Part shown: positions 1 to 11,007 of the stretch, in pieces
Layout: each line of letters opens with the position of its first letter
Position numbering within the stretch: the first letter of the stretch is position 1
Origin: Dehalococcoidia bacterium
GTDB lineage: Bacteria > Chloroflexota > Dehalococcoidia > UBA3495 > JAAXIE01
Reading direction: 5' to 3'
NCBI GenBank assembly: GCA_012270525.1
Contig: JAAXIE010000058.1
Coordinates: 1-11,007, forward strand
DNA: 11,007 nucleotides
The notes under the pieces: model-generated
Databases searched by the model: none
Seen by the model: the letters and a program-made list of their open reading frames with translations, nothing else
What the model was told of the DNA's origin: nothing
Position numbers and translations under genes: made by a program

Positions 1-510
1 ACCATGGAGCGTCTGGGCCGCCTCTCCCCCGCCTTCAAGACCGAAGGCACGGTGACCCCCGGCAACGCCTCGGGAATCAACGACGGAGCATCGGCGGTCG
101 TCGTCATGTCCGGCAGCCGTGCATCCCAGTTGGGGTTGACGCCGTTGGGCGTGGTGCGGAGCTACGCATCGGCGGGAGTGGAACCCCACATCATGGGCAT
201 CGCCCCCGTGGCCTCCAGCACCAAGGCCTTGGGCAAGGCGGGGCTATCGCTGGATGACATGGACCTGGTGGAACTGAACGAGGCCTTCGCCGCCCAGTCC
301 CTGGCGGCGGGCAAGGTATTGGGTCTGGACTGGGACCGTACCAACGTCAACGGCGGGGCCATCGCTCTGGGTCACCCCCTGGCCGCCAGTGGCACTCGCA
401 TCCTGACCACCCTGCTGTACGAGATGGGTCGTCGCGAGGCCGAACATGGTATGGCGACCCTGTGCATCGGCGGCGGGCAGGGCATCTCGCTGGTCATCGA
501 CAAGCCCTAG
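1..510 (+). CDS. Thiolase (acetyl-CoA acetyltransferase family), C-terminal part
   Basis: This is the C-terminal 169 residues of a thiolase, an enzyme that condenses or cleaves acyl-CoA thioesters (acetoacetyl-CoA synthesis or beta-oxidation). The gene is cut by the left window edge; the ATG at 4 is internal. The sequence shows NEAFAAQ at 277-297, a GHPLAASG motif whose His (373-375) is the usual catalytic base, and CIGGGQG, whose Cys (463-465) is the second catalytic Cys of the family. The acylated nucleophile Cys lies upstream, outside the window. The usual GHPLGASG motif has Ala in place of the second Gly here, a mild change. The family is secure, but degradative and biosynthetic types cannot be separated from this part. 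The gene ends at a TAG, about 105 bases before the next gene. Confidence 0.93.
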   Translation, partial: TMERLGRLSPAFKTEGTVTPGNASGINDGASAVVVMSGSRASQLGLTPLGVVRSYASAGVEPHIMGIAPVASSTKALGKAGLSLDDMDLVELNEAFAAQSLAAGKVLGLDWDRTNVNGGAIALGHPLAASGTRILTTLLYEMGRREAEHGMATLCIGGGQGISLVIDKP

Positions 511-531
511 GGCCGAGCTCAGACCCCGCGG

Positions 532-560
532 TTGACGCTCCTCAGGGCAGCCGATATTCT
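532..560 (+). promoter_or_regulatory. Candidate sigma70-type promoter before the VOC gene
   Basis: TTGACG (532-537, 5/6 to the -35 consensus) is followed after 17 bases by TATTCT (555-560, 4/6 to the -10 consensus, keeping the first T, the A and the last T). It lies in the gap between the thiolase stop and the VOC start, so the VOC gene probably has its own transcript. Seen by eye only. Confidence 0.4.
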
Positions 561-615
561 GCCCCTGGCTACGGTAAACTCACGCTGAACACAAAACATG
601 CAAGGAGGTCGCCCG

Positions 616-990
616 ATGGCATACCGGTTCAACCACCTTCACCTGAAGTCCCCAGACACACGAAAGACGGCCAACTGGTACGTGGAGAACTTCGGGGCCA
701 GGATAGTCTCCGAGGGGCAGAACGCCGAGGGGCAGCCCACCTTCCGCCTCGACCTCCACGGCGTCCCCTTCAACGTAACGCCGATGATCTCCAGCCAGGA
801 CGCCAACCGCCAGACCTTCGGCTTGGAGCACATCGCCGTCGACACCGACACCTTCGAGGAAGACATCGCCCGCATGAAGGCTGGCGGGATCAAAGTCCTG
901 GAGGAGAACATCCTGCCCGACGGCCGTCACATCTGCTTCTTCGAGGGGCCGGAAGGCGTGCAGGTCGAGTTCCTGGAAATCAAGAGCTAG
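616..990 (+). CDS. VOC (glyoxalase/bleomycin-resistance fold) family protein
   Basis: A 124-residue protein with the beta-alpha-beta-beta-beta repeat pattern of the vicinal oxygen chelate superfamily, whose members bind a divalent metal and act as isomerases, dioxygenases, or thiol or drug-binding proteins. The first half opens with FNHLHL (His7/His9), then a helix and WYVENFGA. The second half has LEHIAVDTD (His72), then a helix, and ends with the VEFLEI strand (Glu118). These are the places where metal ligands usually sit. The start is chosen at ATG 616 because AAGGAGGT (602-609) lies 6 bases upstream; an in-frame ATG at 598 would sit before that site and is unlikely. The substrate cannot be told. 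Its stop overlaps the stop of the stranded HAD tail on the other strand (987-989). Confidence 0.88.
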   Translation: MAYRFNHLHLKSPDTRKTANWYVENFGARIVSEGQNAEGQPTFRLDLHGVPFNVTPMISSQDANRQTFGLEHIAVDTDTFEEDIARMKAGGIKVLEENILPDGRHICFFEGPEGVQVEFLEIKS

Positions 991-1091
991 CCTGGGCTGG
1001 CTCGTTGCCCTCTTTGACGGGCGAGGCGTCGCACCCCATCGACGACCTCGCCCAGCGTTTTCACCGTGATGTCGGGGGCCACCTCGACAGA
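987..1091 (-). pseudogene. Stranded C-terminal remnant of the HAD hydrolase gene
   Basis: Read on the minus strand, this stretch continues in frame as about 34 residues. VAPDITVKTLGEVVDGV and the following RRLARQ match the end of the intact HAD protein encoded at 2256-3032, then a different tail, RGQRASPG, runs to a TAG at 989-987. It has no start and cannot make a HAD enzyme. The simplest reading is that this was the original end of the HAD gene, convergent with and just touching the VOC gene, until an island inserted and gave the HAD gene a new end (IAEQGSR). Compared with the intact gene, two codons differ in residue (Glu for Val, Ala for Val) and two differ silently. Confidence 0.72.
1013..1090. 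repeat. Direct repeat, left copy, flanking the nuclease island
   Basis: This aligns without gaps to 2279-2356 (offset 1266) over 78 bases with four differences, at 1068, 1078, 1084 and 1086. The first 55 bases (1013-1067) are identical. Similarity stops at once on both sides. It overlaps the stranded HAD tail. Confidence 0.95.
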
Positions 1092-1120
1092 TAGTGTGTT
1101 AACATGCTCAAGACTAGATC

Positions 1121-2218
1121 ATGGCAGAGAGGCCATACGAGATGGCGATTGAAGATGCCTTGAAGCTGGCGGTCGATCGAATACGCTCAGGGCAACTACA
1201 AAAGGAAGAACAGGTTAAACACTCCGTAATTCTTCCACTACTTCGCGCATTGTCCTGGGACGATGCCGACCCTTCGCAGGTGATACCTGAATACCCAGTG
1301 AACAATGGTTCCGTGGACTATGCCTTATGTAGGCCAACTCGAACGCCGTTTGTGTTTCTGGAAGCAAAACGCCTTGAGAGCATGGACGAATCAGGGGTTG
1401 CGCAGGTTTTTGGTTACGCCGCAAACCGGGGTGTCCCATTCCTTGTATTAACTGACGGCAACATCTGGGACTTTTATCTCAGTATGGCAGATGGTGTTCC
1501 CGCTGATCGCAGATTCTACCGCATTGAGTTGGAGCGTTTGGAGAAGATCGCAGAATACGCTGTGTTTTTTGAGGAATACTTGCGCAAAGACCGCGTCAGT
1601 ATGCACGAGACCCGGCTAGCCGCGGAGCAATTACGAGATGGCGACCGTCAGAAAGAAAAAGCCCGCAATGCTATCCCGGGGGTATGGAGAGCCCTATTGG
1701 CCGCGGGGGATCAATCTCTCTGCAGTCTGTTGGTGGATGCGGTAGAGGGAGAATGCGGAACACAACCGGAACTTGACGACGCCGAGGCCTTCTTGAAAAA
1801 CATGGCTGCCACCACGATTCCAGCCGGTCAGAGAACGGTGAACCCAGCGATCTCAACCTCGCAGGGTGCTGGCGATAGGAGAAGCAAGATCGTTGGATTC
1901 GTGCTTGATGAACAGACCCAGAATGTTGGGAACGGAATCCGCACCTTGGTGGAAGTCATAAGAGAGTTCGACCGTCGCTCTCCCGTATTCATGGAACAGT
2001 TCGCCGAGCGCACGAGAGGCCGGACTCGCAGATTAGTTTCGCGGGATCGAGATCACCTCTATGACCAAGTCTCACTAAGAAAACAAGCTATGGACTTGGG
2101 TAATGGTTGGTGGCTGGGCACAAACCTTAGTACGGAGAGCATAAGAAAGAATATCGGTACAGCCTGCTCTGTCATGGACTTACGTCTCGGTTCCCAGCTA
2201 AAGATTATAGAATCCTAA
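1121..2218 (+). CDS. Stand-alone nuclease with HsdR N-terminal-like (PD-(D/E)xK) domain
   Basis: A 365-residue protein. Residues about 10-155 resemble the N-terminal nuclease domain of type I restriction subunit HsdR: a helical lead-in (EEQVKHSVILPLLRAL), Glu57 in IPEYPV, Asp66 in SVDYAL, the E-A-K triplet Glu81-Lys83 after a strand, and Gln95 in AQVFGYA. These are the expected PD-(D/E)xK catalytic positions. No ATPase or helicase follows. The rest has a charged middle (about 155-250) and a C-terminal part with a GWWLGTN motif (329-335) that I cannot assign. No methyltransferase or specificity gene is nearby. There is no clear ribosome binding site before ATG 1121; ATG 1142, with AGAGAGG 9 bases upstream, could be the true start. 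A/T-richer base use and flanking repeats point to recent gain. It could be a solitary defence or DNA-modification-dependent nuclease, or a homing-like enzyme. Confidence 0.75.
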   Translation: MAERPYEMAIEDALKLAVDRIRSGQLQKEEQVKHSVILPLLRALSWDDADPSQVIPEYPVNNGSVDYALCRPTRTPFVFLEAKRLESMDESGVAQVFGYAANRGVPFLVLTDGNIWDFYLSMADGVPADRRFYRIELERLEKIAEYAVFFEEYLRKDRVSMHETRLAAEQLRDGDRQKEKARNAIPGVWRALLAAGDQSLCSLLVDAVEGECGTQPELDDAEAFLKNMAATTIPAGQRTVNPAISTSQGAGDRRSKIVGFVLDEQTQNVGNGIRTLVEVIREFDRRSPVFMEQFAERTRGRTRRLVSRDRDHLYDQVSLRKQAMDLGNGWWLGTNLSTESIRKNIGTACSVMDLRLGSQLKIIES

Positions 2219-2252
2219 CCGTCATGAACGGAATCGCGAGGCAACGCAATAG

Positions 2253-2268
2253 GGGTTAGCGCGAACCC
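2253..2268. other. Small hairpin at the end of the HAD gene
   Basis: GGGTT (2253-2257) and AACCC (2264-2268) pair around a 6-base loop, spanning the HAD stop codon between the convergent nuclease and HAD genes. There is no run of T on either side, so it is a weak terminator candidate at best. Confidence 0.25.
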
Positions 2269-3032
2269 TGTTCAGCAATTTGACGGGCGAGGCGTCGCAC
2301 CCCATCGACGACCTCGCCCAGCGTTTTCACCGTAATGTCGGGGACCACCACAACAGGCTCGCGACGGTCGTCATGGGTCTCGATCCAGATGGTGAGCAGG
2401 CCTGCATCCTTGGCCCCCAGCACATCGTTGCGCAGGTGGTCTCCCACGTGGACAGTCTCCTCGGCTTCGGCCCCCAGTTCGTGCAGTGTGCGCTGGAACA
2501 TGGGCACCGATGGCTTGGCCAGCAGCATCTCGTCGGAAAAGGCCATGATGTCGAAATAGCTCCCCAAGCCCTTCTCCGCCAGAAAACTGCGGAAGGCGTA
2601 CCCTGGGGTCATGCCTGTGTTTGAGATCAGTCCCACCCTGTAGCCGTCGGCCTTCACCTGTGACAGCACTGCGGCTGCGTCCTCGTGCACCCGGGGAGGA
2701 TAGACATAGAAGGAATCGCAGTAGGCCGTGGTGATTTCGGCGACGCTCTCCTGGGGCAGGCTCTCCAGCAGACCCTCCTCGATATGCTCGATGAAAAACG
2801 CGACCTGCTGGTCGAAAGAAACGTCCTTCTCCTCTTCACGTATGGCGTGACAGGTCCTGTAGCAGGCGCGGTAGGCCTCGCGCACCTGTTCCGGATCGAT
2901 CTCACGGCCAGCCTTGGCCAGGGCCGCGACCGCTCCGTCGAGACGCACCTGCATCCGCGCCCTGCCTTGCTCCTGGGTATCCATGAGCAGCGTCTGCCAC
3001 AGGTCGAAGGTGACTGCGGTAATCCTGGCCAA
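2256..3032 (-). CDS. HAD-superfamily hydrolase (haloacid dehalogenase/phosphatase-like)
   Basis: A 258-residue HAD hydrolase with all four motifs: I, FDLWQTL with nucleophile Asp10 (the usual second Asp is Trp12, as in many 'DLWxTL' members); II, LISNTG with Ser137; III, Lys173 in AKPSVPMF; IV, GDHLRND with Asp198 and Asp203. A helical cap lies between motifs I and II (about 20-110). Such enzymes hydrolyse phosphate esters or, less often, carbon-halogen bonds; Trp for the second Asp leaves the class open. The start is TTG (3030-3032) with an AGGTAGG-like site just upstream (about 3035-3043 on the other strand). The last 78 coding-strand bases before IAEQGSR belong to the right copy of the island repeat, so the final residues appear to be supplied by the island. 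Confidence 0.9.
   Translation of the reverse strand: MARITAVTFDLWQTLLMDTQEQGRARMQVRLDGAVAALAKAGREIDPEQVREAYRACYRTCHAIREEEKDVSFDQQVAFFIEHIEEGLLESLPQESVAEITTAYCDSFYVYPPRVHEDAAAVLSQVKADGYRVGLISNTGMTPGYAFRSFLAEKGLGSYFDIMAFSDEMLLAKPSVPMFQRTLHELGAEAEETVHVGDHLRNDVLGAKDAGLLTIWIETHDDRREPVVVVPDITVKTLGEVVDGVRRLARQIAEQGSR
2279..2356. repeat. Direct repeat, right copy, within the HAD gene 3' end
   Basis: This is the partner of 1013-1090, 74 of 78 bases identical. On the minus strand it encodes the end of the HAD protein, from the V-V-V-V-P stretch through R-R-L-A-R-Q. It joins the island at 2278. Confidence 0.95.
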
Positions 3033-3169
3033 GCCCTACCTCTATCCGAAATCCGTGTCCCAGCGGAAGTCACGCCTATTCTACAACGCCCCAAAGCAAC
3101 TTTGTGACGGCAGGTATAGCCCTGCTCCGTGGTCCGCTCCATCCCCACGCGATCAGGTTGCCATGCAGG

Positions 3170-3175
3170 TATAAT
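3170..3175 (+). promoter_or_regulatory. Candidate -10 element for the amidohydrolase gene
   Basis: An exact TATAAT lies 35 bases before the TTG start at 3210, in the 177-base gap between the divergent HAD and amidohydrolase genes. No convincing -35 hexamer is found 16-18 bases upstream, so an activator or another contact may be needed. The sequence GCAGGTATA, which leads into it, also occurs 55 bases upstream (3110-3118). Confidence 0.4.
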
Positions 3176-3209
3176 GGCGTTCCAACGCCTGTGTCGAAGG
3201 AGGAAGGAA

Positions 3210-4727
3210 TTGGCGCAACAGGGGCGTTCCTCCCTGGTCCGCGGAAAGCAGGTCATCGTTCGCGCTGGGGCAGACAACGAATCGAGCCAGGTGATACTCG
3301 ACGGCGCTGTGTTCCAGCGCGACGGTATTATCGAGGACGTTGGCGACTACTCCGCCCTGAGGGCAAGGCACCAGGCCGACGAGGAGCTTGGCGGCCCCAA
3401 CTTCCTCGTCACTCCGGGCTTGGTCAACGCGCATCACCACGGCAGGGGCATCACCACAATCCAGATGGGCACACCCGACGACTCGCTGGAAGCCTGGATC
3501 GTCAACGGCTGGTCCCGCAGGCCAGTCGACAACTACATGATGACCCTCTACACCGCCCTCCAGATGCTGGAGTCGGGTACCACCACCGTGATGTACAACC
3601 ACACCCAGACCCCAGTGGCCACCGTGGAATCGGACATCGATGAGGTGCTGCGTGCCTTCAACGATGCGGGCATGCGGGTCGCCTTCTCGGTCTACCACCG
3701 CACCCAGAACCGGGTGGTCTACGGCGACGACAGGGCCTTTGTCGACTCACTGCCCAGAGATTTGGGTGAGCGGGTGTGGCGACACATAGGAGCGGGCACT
3801 CTCACCGACGACGAATACTTCGGCCTGTTCCAACGGGTCTACGACAGGTACGGCACCGACCCCCAGAGCCGCATACGCGTTCTCCTCAGCCCGTCCAACG
3901 TGCACTGGACCAGCGACGATTTCCTGCAGCGCACCAAGGAATGGGCCCAGCGTTACCAGACGGGCATCCACCTCCACCTGGTGGAGTCCTACTACCAGCG
4001 TCACTACGGCACCCGCCACTGGGGCAAGACGCCACTGGCCCACCTGGACGACCTGGGGTTCCTCGGCCCCGAGGTCTCCTACGCCCATGGTGTGTGGCTC
4101 ACCGAACCCAACCTGCGCCTGCTGGCCGACCACGGGGGTACCGTCTGTCACAACGCCAGTTCCAACCTGCGTCTGAAGAACGGCATCGCTCCGGTGAACC
4201 AGATGCTGCAACACGGCGTAAACGTGGCCATCGGTACCGACAGCGATGGCATCAACGACGACGACGACATGGTGCAGGAGATGCGCTTGGTGTCCAAGCT
4301 GCACCGGCAGCCGGGCATCGGGGCCCCCGCACTGCCATCGGCCCAGGTGCTCAAGATGGCCACGGTCAACGGCTCTTCCCCCACCTTCTTTGAAGGGCAG
4401 GTGGGCACGCTGGAAGTCGGCAAACGGGCCGACATGGTGCTGACCGACCTGTCCCACATCGAGGACCCCTACATGCACCCCGACGTCAGTCCCATCGACG
4501 CCTTCATGCACCGCGGCAAGGCCCGGTACGTGGACACGGTGATCATCGACGGCGAGGTGGTGCTGCAAGATGGTAGGTCCACCAAGGTCAACCAGTCCGA
4601 CCTGGTCGCCCAGATCAGGGAGAGCCTGTCCGCACCGCTGCCGGAGCGCGTGCTGGAAACAGAGCGCATGGTGCGGGAGCTTCTCCCCCACGTCCAAGCC
4701 TTCTATGCCGACTGGACCCAGGAATAG
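3210..4727 (+). CDS. Amidohydrolase-superfamily enzyme (ATZ/TRZ-chlorohydrolase/deaminase type)
   Basis: A 505-residue metal-dependent hydrolase of the branch that includes cytosine/guanine deaminase-like enzymes and atrazine/triazine hydrolases. Visible ligands are the HxH of PGLVNAHHHGRG (His75, His77), His254 with Glu259 in GIHLHLVES, His293 in SYAHGVWL and Asp344 in IGTDSDG, followed by an acidic run and QEMRL; HNASSNLRLK (314-323) is also typical. This pattern suggests a mononuclear metal centre with an acid/base Glu. The start is set at TTG 3210 because AAGGAGG (3197-3203) sits 6 bases upstream; in-frame ATG 3174 and GTG 3129 lie before that site, and the extra residues they add look non-native. 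The substrate is unknown. It is followed 24 bases later by the small selenoprotein gene, probably on the same transcript. Confidence 0.9.
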   Translation: MAQQGRSSLVRGKQVIVRAGADNESSQVILDGAVFQRDGIIEDVGDYSALRARHQADEELGGPNFLVTPGLVNAHHHGRGITTIQMGTPDDSLEAWIVNGWSRRPVDNYMMTLYTALQMLESGTTTVMYNHTQTPVATVESDIDEVLRAFNDAGMRVAFSVYHRTQNRVVYGDDRAFVDSLPRDLGERVWRHIGAGTLTDDEYFGLFQRVYDRYGTDPQSRIRVLLSPSNVHWTSDDFLQRTKEWAQRYQTGIHLHLVESYYQRHYGTRHWGKTPLAHLDDLGFLGPEVSYAHGVWLTEPNLRLLADHGGTVCHNASSNLRLKNGIAPVNQMLQHGVNVAIGTDSDGINDDDDMVQEMRLVSKLHRQPGIGAPALPSAQVLKMATVNGSSPTFFEGQVGTLEVGKRADMVLTDLSHIEDPYMHPDVSPIDAFMHRGKARYVDTVIIDGEVVLQDGRSTKVNQSDLVAQIRESLSAPLPERVLETERMVRELLPHVQAFYADWTQE

Positions 4728-4751
4728 TCAGGCTTCCTCAAGGAGCGCACG

Positions 4752-5030
4752 ATGCGGGTGACCATCAGCGACCAAGCCAGGTACCACCTCCTGGACAAGG
4801 GAGGCAGTGTCGCCCTCGACCTCGTCTTCGGGACCGGGTGAGCCACCCGCCCGAGGGTGTCCGTGGACACCTACCTGCAGCGCAAAGACACATCCAACTA
4901 CCAGTTGGTAGAAGGAGAGGGCGTGCAGGTGTTGGTCTCGCCTCTGTTGGCCGAGCAAGCCAGTTGGATACACCTCGACCTGCAGAAGTTCCTCTTCTGG
5001 AAGAGCCTCGCCGTATACGCGGAAGCGTAA
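4752..5030 (+). CDS. Probable small selenoprotein (HesB-like / CC-Se-motif-like) with in-frame UGA
   Basis: A 92-codon frame from ATG 4752 to TAA 5030 is interrupted only by TGA at codon 30 (4839-4841). AAGGAG (4740-4745) lies 6 bases before the ATG. The 29 residues before the TGA (MRVTISDQARYHLLDKGGSV, then ALDLVFGTG) and the 62 after it form one protein. The later part has a GVQVLVSPLL segment like HesB/IscA proteins and ends with a IHLDLQKFLFWKSL pattern that I recall from the small 'CC/Se motif' (seleno)protein family, in which Sec or Cys sits at this place after an N-terminal strand. The protein has no Cys, so Sec30 would be its only redox residue. A SECIS-like hairpin follows the UGA. 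The function of the family is not known; a redox or Fe-S-related role is inference. The alternative is a nonsense-mutated gene or a sequencing error. It is 24 bases downstream of the amidohydrolase. Confidence 0.75.
4855..4872 (+). promoter_or_regulatory. Candidate bacterial SECIS element
   Basis: GGTGTC (4856-4861) and GACACC (4866-4871) form a perfect 6-bp stem around the 4-base loop CGTG, extendable by a G-U pair at 4855/4872. The loop begins 20 bases after the UGA codon. It has a G in its first two positions followed by U, as the bacterial SECIS pattern recognised by SelB requires, and it lies inside the coding region, as in bacteria. A weaker competing stem (CACCC 4844-4848 with GGGTG 4855-4859) is possible. 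Confidence 0.62.
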
Positions 5031-5076
5031 CGCAACCGGTCGGTGTACTCCCGGCGCCATGCCGGTGTAATCAGGC

Positions 5077-5105
5077 TTGACCCTCGAACAGCCCTCAAAT
5101 ACACT
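5077..5105 (+). promoter_or_regulatory. Candidate promoter for apt, placed almost at the start codon
   Basis: TTGACC (5077-5082, 5/6) and TACACT (5100-5105, 4/6 with the key first, second and last bases) are 17 bases apart. A start of transcription about 7 bases downstream of the -10 would fall near 5112, only some 4 bases before ATG 5116, giving a nearly leaderless message. A short hairpin (CCGGC 5051-5055 / GCCGG 5061-5065) lies just upstream, without a T-run. Confidence 0.4.
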
Positions 5106-5115
5106 CGCAGGCGCG

Positions 5116-5628
5116 ATGGACCTCAAGGACTACATCCGGGACGTGCCCGATTTCCCCAGTCCGGGGATCCTTTTTCGCGACATCACGCCCCTGCTGTCGG
5201 ACCAAGCCGCCTTCCGTCATGCCATCGACCTGATTGCGGAACGGTACGAAGACCGGGGGATCGATACCGTGGTAGCCATCGATGCCAGAGGGTTCCTGTT
5301 CGGAGCCCCGTTGGCTTATCGCTTGGGCAAAGGCTTGGTCCCCGTGCGAAAACAGGGCAAGCTGCCCTACCATTCGCTGCAGGTCGGCTACTCGCTGGAG
5401 TACGGCGAGAACGTGGTGGAGATGCACCGCGACGCCTTGGCCCCAGGCCAGACCGCCCTGGTGGTGGACGACCTGCTGGCTACCGGGGGTACAATCCGGG
5501 CTGCAGCCCAACTGGTGGAACAGGTCGGGGGCAGGGTTGAAAGCATCGCCGCGGTCATCGAACTGGTCGACCTGAACGGGCGCGAGAAACTGCAGGGCTA
5601 CGACGTGTTCGCCCTGATGCAATACTAG
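5116..5628 (+). CDS. apt: Adenine phosphoribosyltransferase
   Basis: A 170-residue cytosolic enzyme of purine salvage that joins adenine to PRPP to give AMP and pyrophosphate. The sequence shows the typical opening MDLKDYIRDVPDFPSPGILF with RDITPLL, then AIDARGFLFGAPLAYRLG, the VPVRKQGKLPY loop with SLEYG, and the PRPP-binding loop VVDDLLATGGT. The length matches the family. ATG 5116 is chosen because homologues begin with this MDLKDYI-type stretch; an in-frame TTG at 5077 would add 13 unrelated residues and coincides with the proposed -35 element. No good ribosome binding site precedes the ATG, in keeping with the promoter lying right against it. The stop is embedded in a 16-base tandem duplication. 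Confidence 0.95.
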   Translation: MDLKDYIRDVPDFPSPGILFRDITPLLSDQAAFRHAIDLIAERYEDRGIDTVVAIDARGFLFGAPLAYRLGKGLVPVRKQGKLPYHSLQVGYSLEYGENVVEMHRDALAPGQTALVVDDLLATGGTIRAAAQLVEQVGGRVESIAAVIELVDLNGREKLQGYDVFALMQY

Positions 5629-5644
5629 CCTGATGCAATACTGG
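5613..5644. repeat. 16-bp tandem duplication at the apt stop
   Basis: Two adjacent 16-base units, 5613-5628 and 5629-5644, match at 15 of 16 positions. The first encodes the last residues of apt (LMQY) and its stop; the second is a non-coding spare that creates a spurious ATG at 5633. Confidence 0.9.
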
Positions 5645-5737
5645 GCGGAAGCAGCACCAGGCACTGGAACCTGCGCAACCTGCCGACGGCCGGTTCCCAG
5701 CGATAAGCGGTTCTCATCTGTTGCCAAGGAGAGGGAC

Positions 5738-6586
5738 ATGCAGGACAAGACGACCATGGGTAACGTGGAAGTCCTCTCGGTACTGGATATGTACTCGCCG
5801 GGACGGCCCGTCGACTTCTTCTTTCCCGATGTGCCCAGGGAAGCCTGGGGCCCGTACCGCGAGTCCCAGTTGGACGAGAACGGCGAGATCGCCCTCCCCT
5901 ACCTGCTGTTCGCCCTGCGCTCCCAGGGCCAGACCATCATGATCGACACTGGCATGGGGCCAGGCCCCCATCCTAGTCGTGCCAACCGCACCGGCGACCT
6001 CATCAACCAGTTGAAGCGTCACGGCATCGGCCCCGATGACGTGGACGTGGTGGTGCACACTCACCTGCATGCCGACCACGTGGGTTGGAACGTCACCTAC
6101 GAGGGCGGCCAGCCCAAGGCCACCTTCCCCAAAGCCAGGTACCTGGTGCCGAGGGCCGACTGGGACTATTTCACCCAACCCGACGTGCTGGCCGAAGAGC
6201 GGAACCAGCATGTGCGCGACTACGTGGTGCCCCTGGAGGGTTTGGGGGTCATGGACCTCATCGACCCCGGGCATACCATCACTTCCGAGGTGTCCACCCT
6301 CCACACGCCGGGACATACTCCGGGCCACATCTGCGTCATGATCGACTCGCAAGGTCAGAGCGGAGCCGTCGTCGGCGACGTGTTCCACATGAGCGTCCAG
6401 ATAGAGCACCCCGACTGGTGCGCCGGAGTGGACCTGGACAAGCCCACGGGTCAGCACAGTCGCGAGCAACTCCTGGAGCGGTCCGAGCGCGACGGCATGA
6501 TCATCGCCGCTGGGCATTTCGGCGTGGACGAGCACTTCGGCCGGGTGGTGCGTCGCGACGGCCGTCGCTACTGGCAGGGTCTCTAG
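5738..6586 (+). CDS. MBL-fold metallo-hydrolase (lactonase-like group)
   Basis: A 282-residue metallo-beta-lactamase-fold hydrolase. The metal site is complete: THLHADH (His109, His111, Asp113, His114), His193 in TPGHTPGH, Asp214 in GDVFH and His260 in AAGHFG, typical of a dinuclear zinc centre. The order and length are like N-acyl homoserine lactonase-type and related small MBL hydrolases, but these enzymes are hard to assign and could also act on other lactones or esters. The start is ATG 5738, with AAGGAGAGGG (5726-5735) upstream; the earlier in-frame ATG at 5633 arises from the tandem duplication and is rejected. It follows apt by 109 bases and converges with the amidase gene, ending 23 bases before it. 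No signal peptide is seen. Confidence 0.9.
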   Translation: MQDKTTMGNVEVLSVLDMYSPGRPVDFFFPDVPREAWGPYRESQLDENGEIALPYLLFALRSQGQTIMIDTGMGPGPHPSRANRTGDLINQLKRHGIGPDDVDVVVHTHLHADHVGWNVTYEGGQPKATFPKARYLVPRADWDYFTQPDVLAEERNQHVRDYVVPLEGLGVMDLIDPGHTITSEVSTLHTPGHTPGHICVMIDSQGQSGAVVGDVFHMSVQIEHPDWCAGVDLDKPTGQHSREQLLERSERDGMIIAAGHFGVDEHFGRVVRRDGRRYWQGL

Positions 6587-6609
6587 GGGCCTGTCGTCAG
6601 GTCAGCGCG

Positions 6610-8022
6610 CTAGAGAGAGGGCCGCCTCGTGTGCCAGTCGGTCGCCTGTTCGTAGGCGTGTGCCGCCCGCAACACCGTAAGCTCGTCGAAGGGCCTCCCG
6701 CCAAGTTGCAACCCGATGGGCATCCCCTCGTCCGAGAAACCGCAGGGTACCGTGATAGCAGGGAAGCCATTGATGTTGAAGGGACGGGTGTACTGGGTTA
6801 GAGCCGCCGTCACCCCCATGGTGGCCTCTCCCACTCCCGTCTCGGTGGCCAGCAGCGGAGGGGCCGTCACCGGGCAGGCTGGCCCCGCGATCAGGTCGAC
6901 CTCGTCCAATAGGGCGCGGCTTTCGCGACGGAACAGGGTGCGGGCCTGCTGACCACGCAGGTAATCGTCGGCCGATATGAAATAGCCCGCCTCCAACCGC
7001 AAGCGTACCGGCGGGTAGTAGAGATCGCCCTTCTCCCGCACCAGCCTGTGGTGATAGGCCGCTGCTTCCGACATCAGCAGGATGCCTGAGATGGCCTGCG
7101 ACTGGTGATACATGGGCCACGACACCTCGCTCACCACCGCTCCCATCTCCGCCAGCACGTCGATGGCTCGACGCACTGCCGCCTCCACCTGCGGGTCGGT
7201 GGGGACTTCGAAATACTCCTTGGGAATGCCGACGCGCAATCCACGGACATCGCCAGTCAGGGCAGCGGTATAGTCATCGGTGGTGCGCTGGGCCGATGCG
7301 GGGTCATTGGAATCGTAACCTGCAGTGGCATTCAACACCAGGGCGCAGTCCTCGACGGAGCGCACCATGGGTCCGGGATGGTCCAACGACCAAGCCAGGG
7401 GCGTGAGTCCGTGACGGCTCAACAGGCCGTAGGTGGGCTTGAGCCCAGCCAGACCGCACAACGCCGAGGGTATCCGTATGGAACCACCGGTATCGCTGCC
7501 CATGGTGATGGTGCATTGGCCTGCGGCAGCCGCCGAACCCGACCCGCCGCTTGAGCCTCCTGCCACCAGTTGGGGGTCCCAAGGGTTGTGCATGTGACCG
7601 TAGTCCCCGTTCTCTCCGGTGGGCCCGTAGGCGAACTGGTGCATGTTCAGCTTGCCCATGAGGATGGCCCCCGCATCCCGGAACCGGGCCATCACCGTGC
7701 AGTCGTAGTCGGGCACGAAGTCATCGAAAATGCGCGACCCTGCCGTGTTCTTCACCCCCTTGGTGTAATAGAGGTCCTTGAGACCCAAGGGGACTCCGTG
7801 CAGGGGTCCCCGGTGGTTTCCCGAAGAGATTTCCTGCTCCGCAATACGCGCCGAGGCCAACGCCTGCTCGGGAAGCAGCGTTATGAAGGAGTTGAGGACG
7901 GGCTCGGTCCGCTCGATGCGCTCCAGCTGGGCCTGCACCACCTCAACCGGCGACACCTCCCGCCTCTCTATCATGCGGCCGAGATCGCCCGCGGTCAGGT
8001 AGCACAGTTCAATTGGTTCCAT
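6610..8022 (-). CDS. Amidase-signature family hydrolase (GatA-like)
   Basis: A 470-residue enzyme of the amidase signature family, which hydrolyses carboxamides. The Ser-cisSer-Lys triad is visible: Lys82 in GLKDLYYTKG, Ser157 in AGGSSGGSGS and nucleophile Ser181 in GSDTGGSIRIPSALCG, with the expected 24-residue spacing between the two serines. The start ATG (8020-8022) has an AAAGGAG site 5-6 bases upstream on the minus strand. A small GatC-like gene ends 49 bases upstream, and no gatB is in the window, so this is more likely a catabolic amidase with a GatC/AtzG-type partner than the tRNA-dependent amidotransferase, though gatB elsewhere is possible. It is the last gene of the minus-strand cluster and converges with the MBL hydrolase. 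The substrate is unknown. Confidence 0.92.
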   Translation of the reverse strand: MEPIELCYLTAGDLGRMIERREVSPVEVVQAQLERIERTEPVLNSFITLLPEQALASARIAEQEISSGNHRGPLHGVPLGLKDLYYTKGVKNTAGSRIFDDFVPDYDCTVMARFRDAGAILMGKLNMHQFAYGPTGENGDYGHMHNPWDPQLVAGGSSGGSGSAAAAGQCTITMGSDTGGSIRIPSALCGLAGLKPTYGLLSRHGLTPLAWSLDHPGPMVRSVEDCALVLNATAGYDSNDPASAQRTTDDYTAALTGDVRGLRVGIPKEYFEVPTDPQVEAAVRRAIDVLAEMGAVVSEVSWPMYHQSQAISGILLMSEAAAYHHRLVREKGDLYYPPVRLRLEAGYFISADDYLRGQQARTLFRRESRALLDEVDLIAGPACPVTAPPLLATETGVGEATMGVTAALTQYTRPFNINGFPAITVPCGFSDEGMPIGLQLGGRPFDELTVLRAAHAYEQATDWHTRRPSL

Positions 8023-8071
8023 GATTGCTCCTTTGGTGACCGGGATTGGGCTGCGGTCGGCCCATTACTGC

Positions 8072-8269
8072 CTACAACTGGCCATCCGCCATGTAGACGA
8101 TCTCCGGCTCGACCTTGCTGAGGTCCAGTTCGTTGATGGAGCCAAGTCCCCGCAGCGTCCCCCTGACTATGGGGAACAACTCCGCCATGTGAGGGCTGCT
8201 GGTATCCAGCCCAGCGGCCTTCGCCATCTCCAGAAACTGCTCTTCGGTTATCTCTTCGCCCACGGACAT
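8072..8269 (-). CDS. Small GatC-like (AtzG-type) partner of the amidase
   Basis: A 65-residue acidic, helical protein that begins ITEEQFLEMAKAAGLD and ends near LDLSKVEPEIVY. This resembles the GatC fold: an N-terminal helix, a middle helix (ELFPIVRGTLRGLGSI), then a 'xxVEPxxx' tail. GatC-like proteins wrap around and stabilise GatA-type amidases, and AtzG does the same for the AtzE amidase. The start is ATG 8267-8269 with AAGGAG about 8 bases upstream; a longer in-frame extension to 8413 is rejected because it overlaps the protease gene and has unrelated content. It sits directly before the amidase gene in the same direction, which fits a complex between the two products. The assignment rests on a short weak pattern plus gene order. 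Confidence 0.65.
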   Translation of the reverse strand: MSVGEEITEEQFLEMAKAAGLDTSSPHMAELFPIVRGTLRGLGSINELDLSKVEPEIVYMADGQL

Positions 8270-8312
8270 CGGCGCAACTCCTTCCCATTCCGGCCCAGCG
8301 TGCAGCCAGGAA

Positions 8313-8669
8313 CTAGTACATGATGAGATGTGCAGGCACCAGCCTTTGGTGAGTGGGGTCGACCGCCAACCGCAGCCCTTCCAGGGTATAGTCCCCCAAC
8401 AGGGGTGGAACATCGTCCTCGCCGAAGACCACTATGGTGGCCACGCTCGCTCCATCTATCGTTGCTCTCGCCTCCCCAATCTCCCACTCGACCCCACGAC
8501 TGTCGGCCATCTCCAGTACCGCGGTCTCGGTTGGCAAGACACCCAACTCCCGCAGCAGGCGTCCCGGCAGCATGGTGAAGAACGCCCCGGTATCCACGGT
8601 TGCTTCCAGGTCCCGCCAGTTCTCTCCGTCCATGGTGGAAATCCTCGTCGGATAGCTGAACGTTCCCAT
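8313..8669 (-). CDS. Retropepsin-like (clan AA) aspartic protease family protein
   Basis: A 118-residue protein with one aspartic-protease half: the catalytic motif VDTGA (Asp26-Thr27-Gly28) after a strand, then FTMLP and a helix (GRLLRELGV), a beta-rich middle, and LLGDYTLEGL (90-99), which matches the I/LLG motif of retropepsins. Such single-domain proteins work as dimers; small bacterial versions are widespread, but their targets are mostly unknown. No signal peptide or membrane segment is visible, so it is probably cytosolic. The start is ATG 8667-8669, with a modest GAGGACAGG-like site upstream. It lies 30 bases after the aldolase/SDR gene and 43 bases before the GatC-like gene on the same strand, so it is probably co-transcribed with both. 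Confidence 0.8.
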   Translation of the reverse strand: MGTFSYPTRISTMDGENWRDLEATVDTGAFFTMLPGRLLRELGVLPTETAVLEMADSRGVEWEIGEARATIDGASVATIVVFGEDDVPPLLGDYTLEGLRLAVDPTHQRLVPAHLIMY

Positions 8670-8699
8670 ATTTCAGTTTCCTGTCCTCAACGAACCACT

Positions 8700-10760
8700 T
8701 TATCGTGGGAACGCTTCCCGCACTCCACCGTCCACGGGAATCATGGCTCCCGTGGTCTTGGCCGATCGGTCCGAGGCCAGAAAGAGGGCTGCCTCGGCGA
8801 CGTCCTCCGCCAGCACCCGCTGCTTGAGCAGGTTTCGTTGCCGGTAGAAATCTTCCAGTTGGTCCACCCCGACGTTGTGGGCCCGGGCCCGCTGTTCCCG
8901 CACCTCATTCGACCACAGGCTGGATCCCTCGAATATCGCGTCGGGGTTGATGACGTTGCAGCGTATTCCGTGGCCCCCGTTCTCGATGGCCAGCACCCTG
9001 GCCAACTGCACCTCGGCTGCCTTGGACGCGCTGTACGCCCCGAAATCGCCCCCAGGCGCAGGAACGTTCTTGGTGCCCACGAACACCAGATTGCCCCCCA
9101 GGCCCTGCTGGCGCATTATCCTGACAGCTTCCTGGGCCACCAGAAAGTGGCCCGTGGTGTTCACGTCGAACGCCCTCTGCCAGAGCGACAGCGACATCTC
9201 GTGCATCGCTCCCGTTGGAGCGATGCCAGCGTTGGATACCAGAATGTCCAGCCCGCCGTAGGCCAGCACCGTCCGCCGGAACGCTTCAGCCACATCCGCC
9301 TGGTCGGTCACGTTCATGGTCACTCCGAGACCCCGGCCCTCTCCGCGCTCCGCGACGACCTGGGATGCCACTGCCTGGGCCCCCTCGCCATCAATGTCGG
9401 TAACGACCACGTGGGCCCCCTCCGATGCCAGCCTCAACGCGATGGCCCGCCCGATTCCAGCCGCGGCCCCGGTGACCAGGGCCACCCTTCCAGCCAGTTC
9501 TCCCCCACGGGGAGCCAAGCCCAGCTTGTACAACTCCAGTGGCCAGTACTCCGCCTCGAAGGCATCCTTGTCGGATAGCGAGGAATAGCCACCGACCCCC
9601 TGCGCCGAGCGCATCACGTCAATGGTATGTCGATAGATGTCGCCGGTGACGACGGCCGCTCGAGCATCCCGCCCTGTCGTCCACATCCCGATGCCCGGGA
9701 TCAGCACCACCCGCGGGTAGGGGTCCAGCATGGGCGTACCACTCGAGGCATGTGCGGCATGCCATCGCCTGTAGCCCTCGGCGTATCCTTCGACCGCACC
9801 AGGCAGCCCTGCCAGCAGACCTTCCACGTCCCCCGGATGCTCGTTCTCCAGCCACAGGGGAAGGCGCTTGGTCTGGATGATATGGTCGGGGGTAGCGGGA
9901 CCGACCCCGGCAACCTCGCGTCCCCGCTCCGACCCCACCATATCCAGCACATGAGGCGAATCGTCGTAGCGCAGAACGGCAAGCTGCTTCCGGGACACCT
10001 CTCCCCTCAGTGTCGGGGCGATGTCAGCGGCCACTTGATGGCGTTTCTCAGCTTCCAGACTCGGCGTTTTCAGCACGCCGAAGGCCCGTTTTCCCGACGC
10101 CCGCTTCCGAGCGTAGTCCTCCGCTTGGGACACCAACTCTATGTGGTCGTCGTAGCACGCCTTGGCTGTGTCTCCCCAAGTGAAGAGCCCGTGGTTGGCG
10201 AGAACCACCCCCTTGATGCCCGGCCACCGCCTGACCTCGGTCCCCACCAGCTTGGAGAGGCCGAAGCCAGGCCGGATGTAGGGCACGACGGCGACGGTAT
10301 CGCCATACGCCTCGCGCAGGACCGTCGCGGCCTCCGGGTTGTTGGTCAGCGCGATCACCGCATCTGCGTGGGAGTGGGCGACCACCGGAGCGGGAATGAA
10401 GGAGTGAAGCAGCGTCTCGATGGAGGGCCTCCGACCCCCCGAGTCGAGGGCGCAATGCTCCAGGTACGCCACCATCTCCTCGTCGCTCATGGACTCCAGC
10501 TCGAACAGCGGCTCGATGTCGCCCAAGCGCAGGCCGACGAAGTCCCTTGTCCCAGCGGTTTTGAGGTCAGAGCCACTGCTCTTGATGAGCAGGGTCCGGG
10601 TGTCGCGTCCCCGGAAATCGGGTTGGCTCGTCTTTATCGAGGTGTTGCCCCCACCCCACACCACCAAGCCCTCGTCCGCCCCGATGAGACGGCTGAGGTA
10701 GACCAACTCCTCCAGCCCGCCAAGTCCCCGGGCCTCTTCATCTGACCAGCGAGAGTCCAT
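8700..10760 (-). CDS. Class II aldolase / short-chain dehydrogenase fusion (RhaD-ADH-like)
   Basis: A 686-residue two-domain enzyme. Residues about 15-250 are a class II aldolase/adducin domain: GGGNTSIKT, zinc ligands in VAHSHADAV (His129, His131) and His190 in LANHGLFTWG. After a linker (about 260-420), residues 424-686 are a Rossmann-fold dehydrogenase: TGAAAGIG for NAD(P), Asp455 after the second strand (favouring NAD), NAG (510-512), and Tyr576-x3-Lys580. The usual catalytic Ser position appears as Thr563 in VGTKN. The layout matches the rhamnulose-1-phosphate aldolase/alcohol dehydrogenase fusion, which splits the sugar phosphate and oxidises the resulting lactaldehyde. No rhamnose isomerase or kinase is in view, so another keto-sugar phosphate is possible. 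The ATG start lies 21 bases after the preceding aldolase gene, with only a weak ribosome binding site. Confidence 0.9.
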   Translation of the reverse strand: MDSRWSDEEARGLGGLEELVYLSRLIGADEGLVVWGGGNTSIKTSQPDFRGRDTRTLLIKSSGSDLKTAGTRDFVGLRLGDIEPLFELESMSDEEMVAYLEHCALDSGGRRPSIETLLHSFIPAPVVAHSHADAVIALTNNPEAATVLREAYGDTVAVVPYIRPGFGLSKLVGTEVRRWPGIKGVVLANHGLFTWGDTAKACYDDHIELVSQAEDYARKRASGKRAFGVLKTPSLEAEKRHQVAADIAPTLRGEVSRKQLAVLRYDDSPHVLDMVGSERGREVAGVGPATPDHIIQTKRLPLWLENEHPGDVEGLLAGLPGAVEGYAEGYRRWHAAHASSGTPMLDPYPRVVLIPGIGMWTTGRDARAAVVTGDIYRHTIDVMRSAQGVGGYSSLSDKDAFEAEYWPLELYKLGLAPRGGELAGRVALVTGAAAGIGRAIALRLASEGAHVVVTDIDGEGAQAVASQVVAERGEGRGLGVTMNVTDQADVAEAFRRTVLAYGGLDILVSNAGIAPTGAMHEMSLSLWQRAFDVNTTGHFLVAQEAVRIMRQQGLGGNLVFVGTKNVPAPGGDFGAYSASKAAEVQLARVLAIENGGHGIRCNVINPDAIFEGSSLWSNEVREQRARAHNVGVDQLEDFYRQRNLLKQRVLAEDVAEAALFLASDRSAKTTGAMIPVDGGVREAFPR

Positions 10761-10781
10761 TGGTCGCGGTTCTCGCCAGCC

Positions 10782-11007
10782 TCACTTGGCCTCGGCCTTG
10801 AGGCTCTGGAAAAGTTCGTGTGCCTCCCCGGCACTGGCCCCTTCATGCACGATCTGGCGAATGGCCCGGATCATTGGCACAGGGTGTTCGTTCTGCCAGA
10901 TGTTGCGCCCCAGGTTCACCCCGATGGCCCCTCGCTGCATGCCGTCATCGACGAACTCGAGGACCTCCAACTCCGTGTCCACCTGGGGTCCCCCCGCCAT
11001 GATCACC
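10782..11007 (-). CDS. Class I aldolase, DhnA/FbaB (or LsrF)-like, C-terminal part
   Basis: This is the last 74 or so residues of a TIM-barrel class I aldolase cut by the right window edge. It shows MAGGPQVDTE, a GAIGVNLGRNIWQNEHP phosphate-binding segment and a final helix with IVHEGASAGEAHEL, the typical end of DhnA-type fructose-bisphosphate aldolases and the related thiolase LsrF. The Schiff-base Lys lies outside the window. The stop (10782-10784) is 21 bases before the aldolase/SDR fusion on the same strand, so the two are probably one operon. That puts two unrelated aldolases side by side in a sugar or sugar-like catabolic unit. The exact substrate cannot be told. Confidence 0.85.
   Translation of the reverse strand, partial: VIMAGGPQVDTELEVLEFVDDGMQRGAIGVNLGRNIWQNEHPVPMIRAIRQIVHEGASAGEAHELFQSLKAEAK

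Follow-up and report, generated by a model that had tools for sequence, protein, structure and literature searches.

A probable selenoprotein gene related to the CC/Se family, with a predicted IscA/HesB fold, in a Dehalococcoidia genome

Gene structure and conservation

The stretch of DNA analyzed in this study (the window) comprises 11,007 nucleotides from a Dehalococcoidia bacterium (positions 1 to 11,007 of the forward strand of contig JAAXIE010000058.1, assembly GCA_012270525.1) and carries, between an amidohydrolase gene and a phosphoribosyltransferase gene, a short reading frame that contains a UGA codon (Table 1). The frame runs from the ATG at 4752 through a single in-frame TGA to the TAA at 5028-5030; the ribosome-binding site, the start codon, the TGA at codon 30 and the open frame to codon 92 had been pointed out in a first-pass annotation made from the sequence alone, and all of them can be read directly. 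With the UGA read as selenocysteine (Sec), the product has 92 residues, with Sec in the context FGTGU, continuing as UATR, a C-terminus of VYAEA, and no cysteine (Cys). Decoding of codon 30 as Sec in a real selenoprotein gene at 4752-5030 is the best explanation of the evidence presented below and is very probably correct.

Table 1. Positions of the UGA-containing gene, its signals and its neighbors in the window
Feature	Position	Strand	Basis
Probable gene for a 92-residue selenoprotein akin to the CC/Se family (NF041239), with Sec at 30 and a predicted HesB/IscA fold	4752..5030	+	Profile, homologues, predicted fold, dN/dS
AAGGAG ribosome-binding site (Shine-Dalgarno-like), 6 nt 5' of the ATG	4740..4745	+	Direct reading
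UGA codon 30, probably read as Sec	4839..4841	+	Homologue column; hhalign alignment to the IscA/HesB GCSG cysteine
Putative SECIS hairpin, 5' arm, GGGTGTC	4855..4861	+	Folding; wobble covariation with 3' arm
Putative SECIS apical loop, CGTG (N1-G-U-N2)	4862..4865	+	Folding; loop-end complementarity in relatives
Putative SECIS hairpin, 3' arm, GACACCT	4866..4872	+	Folding; covariation
Upstream neighbor, amidohydrolase (PF01979)	3129..4727	+	Syntenic in L001, 89% identity; context only
Downstream neighbor, phosphoribosyltransferase (PF00156), apt-like in the first-pass annotation	5077..5628	+	Syntenic in L001, 92% identity; context only

The gene has a syntenic counterpart on a 3.4-Mb Dehalococcoidia chromosome record (locus L001, genome G001), whose product is 79% identical to that of the window. 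This counterpart has GAGGAG in place of the window's AAGGAG and the same TGA at codon 30; since the chromosome record was assembled independently, the shared TGA argues against a sequencing error, and the codon recurs at this position in independent assemblies. The ratio of nonsynonymous to synonymous substitution rates (dN/dS) between the two genes is 0.22 5' of the TGA and 0.15 3' of it, indicating purifying selection on both sides, and most of the differences in the sense frame are synonymous. Two further true relatives among the five loci returned by the DNA search, L002 (54% identity) and L003 (44%), likewise have TGA at codon 30, so that all three true relatives do; the remaining two loci, L004 and L005, appear to be chance matches.

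Distribution of relatives and the codon-30 column

A protein database search returned 16 proteins at E<=1, all of them 53-84 residues long, starting shortly 3' of the TGA and 74-92% identical to the window product. Database entries for the relatives are mostly such truncated second halves, nameless or labeled 'hypothetical protein', as expected when gene callers meet a Sec gene and as the first-pass annotation had predicted in stating that standard callers would miss the gene or report it in fragments.

Genome sets drawn from the class (393 of a larger number of genomes), the phylum (400) and Actinomycetota (396) were searched, together with 250 genomes of the order. The gene was found in 27 of the 393 class genomes, with exactly one TGA in the aligned part of all 27 matches, and in 84 of the 250 order genomes, where each of the 89 matches contained at least one in-frame TGA (two in the aligned part of one match) and none contained TAA or TAG. 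Eleven of the 396 Actinomycetota genomes contained the gene, and the codon-30 column was TGA in seven of these and Cys in four. Once identical proteins had been merged, 117 distinct rows remained, with TGA in 113 (112 by script plus the partial L062) and Cys in four; the set of 112 Sec30 sequences referred to below leaves out the four Cys30 rows and L062. Homologues therefore run through the position, and the column holds Sec (as TGA) or Cys, apart from a glycine (Gly) in a single database protein (P0046). No relative was found in the viral contigs scanned.

Several loci (L070, L076, L097, L098, L110 and L113) each hold two adjacent paralogues of the Sec gene, with an in-frame TGA in both. In a class of paralogues (L049 and part of L069-L142), Sec is preceded by a Cys at a distance of 3 or 4 residues and the C-terminus often differs (NGLVLGRR); in 19 loci, the gene lies downstream of one that we take to be HD-domain-like. 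The L109 gene has a third in-frame TGA at the position of the relatives' tryptophan (FKULKVNA compared to FKWLKVNA), which may reflect an error in the sequence or recoding of yet another codon.

Putative SECIS hairpin

The RNA 3' of codon 30 can fold into a hairpin with a 7-bp stem that starts 13 nt past the UGA, a loop at 20 nt and a folding energy of -9.2 kcal/mol; the hairpin with a CGUG loop 20 bases after the UGA in the first-pass annotation is thus present, at 4855-4872. In the published model of the bacterial selenocysteine insertion sequence (SECIS), the loop has 3-9 nt with a G in the first two positions, the stem has 4-16 bp, the spacing is 16-37 nt and the minimum free energy is <= -7.5 (PMC13188914), and the window hairpin agrees on every point with the model as given in the legend of Fig. 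2 of that source. It also has the 4-nt loop of the bacterial consensus described there, with G at position 2 followed by U and with complementary N1 and N2, and no differences from it were found. Rfam reported no known element in the window at the gathering score, and a flavin mononucleotide (FMN) riboswitch placed over the gene at a relaxed threshold is a chance match (13.7 bits vs 66.2).

As a whole, the 50-nt stretch has an ordinary folding energy (z -0.58, with 57 of 200 shuffles folding equally well), which gives no support for the hairpin. By itself, the hairpin outdoes 99 of 100 base shuffles, which preserve base composition only, as do those of the survey of relatives. What raises the hairpin above chance is that the same hairpin occurs in relatives with covarying synonymous wobble bases, together with the purifying selection seen both before and after the TGA. 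A hairpin with a folding free energy (dG) <= -6 is present in 95 of the 112 Sec30 loci and outdoes 95% of base shuffles in 62, all of which have GU in the loop and 59 of which place the loop at 20 or 23 nt. None of the four Cys30 loci has a hairpin that outdoes 95% of shuffles.

Because the coding motif VSVDT underlies the hairpin, conservation of the protein and of the RNA need to be separated, which the wobble bases make possible. Counts were made on the 109 of 112 Sec30 sequences bearing the motif [VI]xV[DS]T. The facing wobbles of V36 and D39 in the stem are G-C in 64 sequences, A-T in 40, G-T in 1 and C-C in 4; the exchange between G-C and A-T is synonymous (GTG/GTA with GAC/GAT), the only exception being an ATA codon, and residue 39 is encoded by AGC in all four C-C rows. 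In 104 of the 109 sequences, loop bases 1 and 4, which are mostly the wobbles of residues 37 and 38, are complementary to each other. Over the seven stem pairs, 677 of 763 cells are paired in register, compared to 195-385 when the arms are slid by 1 to 3, although the outermost pair is formed in only 55 of 109. On the protein tree (built from 116 rows over 93 columns; 49 of its 113 inner branches are open, and 103 rows were used for covariation), at least 7 changes are required at V36 and 8 at D39, and all four independent pairs on starred branches change together.

Selenocysteine machinery

The genome carrying L001 (G001) contains selA (552 bits), selB (346 bits), a tRNA-Sec whose anticodon is TCA, and two selD genes (L028 and L031), which lie near opposite ends of the same chromosome record and contain one in-frame TGA apiece. 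Both of the fragmented genomes that hold L002 and L003 have selB above the cut-off and neither has selA above it; tRNA-Sec(TCA) was found only in that of L003, and selD above the cut-off only in that of L002. Across the order, selB scored above the cut-off in 209 of 250 genomes, including 79 of the 84 that bear the gene and 130 of the 166 that do not (p 0.001, with the lists compared by eye; Fisher p-values overstate significance here, as related sequences are not independent). Since selB is common across the order anyway, its association with the gene offers mild support.

Family placement and predicted fold

With Sec entered as Cys, residues 1-88 of the product match NF041239.1 ("CC/Se motif family (seleno)protein") at 41.3 bits, against a curated cut-off of 40, and the fold predicted for the protein is that of IscA/SufA/HesB; the CC/Se-like and HesB-like patterns remarked on in the first-pass annotation thus reappear, the former in the profile and the latter in the predicted fold. 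In common with NF041239, which is predicted in Moorella thermoacetica, the window protein has a full-length profile match above the cut-off and Sec in the motif column, and its relatives in the order carry a Cys 3 or 4 residues before Sec. However, Table 1 of PMC13188914 gives the family the motif CxxU and one Sec, and CxxU is absent from the window protein, which has no Cys at all; in 48 of the 112 Sec30 sequences, a second Sec is found in the tail instead. An NF041239 search of the 400 phylum genomes gave four matches, with only that of G001 above the cut-off; the distant matches below it have a CC motif (L064 and L065) or CU, encoded as C-TGA (L066), and these three were excluded from the 117 rows. 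A C-terminal Cys is also present in L064 and L065.

Alignment with hhalign placed Sec30 at the GCSG cysteine of IscA/HesB (E 3.8e-05), using eight of nine IscA matches (L161 was left out), three of which have no GCSG cysteine. Compared to the A-type carriers IscA, SufA and HesB (PF01521), the window protein shares the predicted fold and has Sec30 at the first ligand cysteine, but it lacks the C-terminal CxC; relatives have U/C-x-H there (judged by eye), and the window protein has neither. PF01521 weakly matched two of 35 family members (best E 0.045), and PF28096, listed by the protein database for many relatives, was reported by none of the Pfam scans in this study. A PDB sequence profile search gave chance matches only, and the link to IscA came from fold searches. 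The name UXX-star presumably denotes Sec two residues before the stop codon, as in the tails of relatives described below. The UXX-star families NF041114 and NF041211 (names from PMC13188914, with NF041114 listed as Grx-like) had no match among the 35 members at E<=0.1, and the window protein lacks such a tail. TIGR01911 (HesB-like selenoprotein) and NF038090 (IscA_HesB_Se), by name IscA/HesB-related (seleno)proteins, gave only weak matches, in one (E 0.039) and two (E 0.0066) of the 35 members, respectively. Table 1 of PMC13188914 lists TIGR01911 with one Sec and the motif UxGP; the window protein has UATR in place of UxGP and matched neither of these two profiles at E<=1. Because it passes the NF041239 cut-off without CxxU, and has the predicted IscA fold without CxC or a PF01521 match, we regard the window gene as a variant branch allied to the CC/Se family and as a standard member of neither group.

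A probable second selenocysteine in the tails of relatives

Many relatives end in a histidine (His)-rich tail, e.g., ...H-x-H-x-P-T-U-x-H-(G)-stop, in which U is a second in-frame TGA, and others have Cys at this position, as in ACTH (L002) and TCRH (L037). Sorted by the His-tail pattern, the 117 distinct rows comprise 49 with a U tail, 9 with a Cys tail and 59 others. A second hairpin (dG <= -6, at or past the stop codon and 3' of the second TGA) is present in 39 of the 49 Sec tails, compared to 1 of the 9 Cys tails and 10 of the 59 others. It outdoes 95% of base shuffles in 38 of the Sec tails (36 of these with a GU loop), in no Cys tail, and in nine of the other genes, none of which has a GU loop. 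Its placement at or past the stop codon differs from the bacterial SECIS consensus of PMC13188914. Given that TGA also appears to be the ordinary stop in 25 of 58 tail-bearing genes, the case for the second Sec rests on the exchange with Cys, the conserved residues after the TGA and the hairpin. Among the aligned genes, Sec, as predicted from TGA, and Cys exchange at both positions, and the extra hairpin accompanies Sec.

The window gene and L001, both tailless, pair in the tree, and the nearest other rows, L002 and L068, have the tail; a database relative (P0012) ends in KDEHVHGPE, which looks like a tail remnant. Loss of the tail in the window branch would be the simplest reading, with a tree resolution insufficient for proof. 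Having neither tail nor Cys, the window protein would carry a lone Sec, which the first-pass annotation had considered unusual; the absence of Cys stands, whereas the form is not unique, since nine of the 112 Sec30 proteins (the window and L001 included) have one Sec and no Cys.

It is possible, although somewhat doubtful, that a Chloroflexota lineage with Actinomycetota kin has an IscA/HesB-fold carrier in which both cluster-ligand positions are Sec, each with its own SECIS. With the second of these hairpins at or beyond the stop codon, UGA would be recoded twice in one short mRNA, the second time only a few codons from its end, and the window branch would have lost the second Sec and retained a single selenium ligand. 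Such a protein would be an A-type carrier whose metal or iron-sulfur (Fe-S) site is ligated by selenium. The literature searched, including Table 1 of PMC13188914, gave no account of the double-Sec form. Genes with the tail lend themselves to a compact natural test of whether UGA is recoded twice when one SECIS lies at or beyond the stop codon, and the relatives with a Cys tail serve as built-in controls.

Alternative explanations

The reading of codon 30 as Sec, proposed in the first-pass annotation, draws on the homologue column of TGA or Cys, the agreement with the SECIS model, the covariation and the machinery of a relative, and the refuting conditions named in that annotation, as far as they were checked, came out in its favor. 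A number of results weigh against it or against the fold assigned to the product. Seventeen of the 112 Sec30 loci lack a hairpin with dG <= -6, and 50 fall below the mark of 95% of shuffles; the independent-pairs test, with four starred pairs only, is not significant alone (p 0.125). The machinery is partial across the three genomes searched (selA in one, selB in three, tRNA-Sec(TCA) and selD in two each), five of the 84 gene-bearing order genomes have no selB match, and for the window organism itself we infer the machinery from a relative. P0046 has Gly in the Sec30 column and ends where others have the second TGA. The hhalign probability is only 71%, and the window protein has no Pfam match at E<=1 or E<=10. 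Finally, no neighboring gene is common to the whole tree, as the clusters are clade-specific, the largest with 19 loci.

Translation might instead end at the TGA, leaving two genes or a pseudogene with a 57-residue piece read from the GTG at 4857. The frame 3' of the TGA does contain start codons, and the 53-84 residue products that make up most database entries begin shortly after the TGA; however, selection is purifying before as well as after the TGA, the codon is TGA and never TAA or TAG in the 89 order matches, full-length Cys30 proteins cover both halves, and the hairpin covaries at synonymous sites, all of which make this explanation very unlikely. Genome-wide reassignment of TGA, or nonspecific near-cognate read-through, would also yield a full-length product. 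The database protein with Gly in the column could be taken in this sense, as could P0023, with W at both Sec positions, for which a gene caller using TGA=W is the simplest explanation. Such read-through nevertheless seems highly improbable given the tRNA-Sec(TCA), selA, selB and UGA-containing selD of G001, the apparent use of TGA as an ordinary stop in 25 of 58 tail-bearing genes, the presence of Cys rather than Trp in the four non-Sec loci read as DNA, and the fit of the hairpin to the published SECIS model. It is less probable still, to the point of being negligible, that the opposite strand is what codes here: a 132-aa open reading frame (ORF) at 4728-5126 (-) is free of stops in the window, L001 and L003 each likewise keep one antisense frame open across the gene, and the antisense translation matches L001 at 58% over 102 residues, but stops occur in all three antisense frames of L002, and the 58% compares with 79% for the sense product, whose differences are mostly synonymous.

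The remaining alternative accepts Sec at codon 30 and concerns what the protein does. Instead of carrying metal or Fe-S, it may be a thiol/selenol redox enzyme of the kind of peroxidases or reductases, which is a real possibility, if somewhat short of an even one. Sec30 is constant while its potential partner varies among the 112 sequences: a second Sec in the tail (48), Cys at -4 (34), a Cys tail with the His pattern (9), a Cys near the C-terminus without the pattern (4), Cys at +3 (2), Cys at -3 (1), Cys elsewhere (5) or none (9). In addition, a redox role is assumed for most uncharacterized selenoproteins (PMC13188914, section 7). The predicted IscA/SufA fold with Sec at a cluster-ligand cysteine, and the resemblance of the His-rich U-x-H tail to a metal site, point away from such an enzyme.

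Proposed mechanism and function

In the mechanism proposed for the selenoprotein gene, SelB with Sec-tRNA(UCA) would recognize the hairpin at 4855-4872, and the UGA at codon 30 would be read as Sec instead of stop to give the 92-residue protein. While the conserved UGA, the SECIS hairpin and selection over the full length are read from the sequences, we infer SelB-dependent insertion, the placement of Sec at the cluster-ligand position and a metal, Fe-S or redox role. The protein would fold like the A-type Fe-S carriers IscA, SufA and HesB, with Sec30 replacing the first conserved cysteine (GCSG); tail-bearing relatives would have a second Sec or Cys together with His (U/C-x-H, with His residues before it) where A-type carriers have CxC, which suggests a selenium-and-histidine metal or redox site. 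The window branch would have dropped the tail and kept Sec30 alone, and its protein would act with a partner thiol or as a dimer. Because the partner residues vary, Sec30 would be the constant working group, and the partner may be the tail, a nearby Cys or a second molecule. The most likely function would be that of a small carrier for soft-metal or Fe-S binding or for redox reactions, and for a metal or Fe-S carrier role in particular the chances seem about evenly balanced. Should the IscA-like site bind metal, selenium would occupy the place that sulfur has in carriers of this kind.

Sec in Chloroflexota appears in the literature passages drawn on here in formate dehydrogenases and other anaerobic dehydrogenases. 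The sources used in this study as a whole are PMC13188914, PMC1088965, PMC1794560, PMC12013277, PMC4959059, PMC5736913 and PMC3971608. Ordinary annotation misses the present gene, and once recognized, it would give one third of the genomes sampled from the order (84 of 250) an additional conserved selenoprotein.

Genomic context

As the neighboring genes are only clade-specific, no function can be drawn from context. Nine of the 11 window ORFs compared have a match in the L001 region, at 77-93% protein identity, and none was found for ORFs 1121-2218 and 8313-8669. The latter, on the minus strand, is small and has a weak aspartyl-protease match below the cut-off. ORF 1121-2218 (weak HSDR_N match, below the cut-off) is flanked by a 78-nt direct repeat (95%) at 1013-1090 and 2279-2356, the second copy of which overlaps the 3' end of a HAD gene; with the repeat on either side, the overlap with the end of the HAD gene and no L001 match, the ORF looks like an insertion with duplication.
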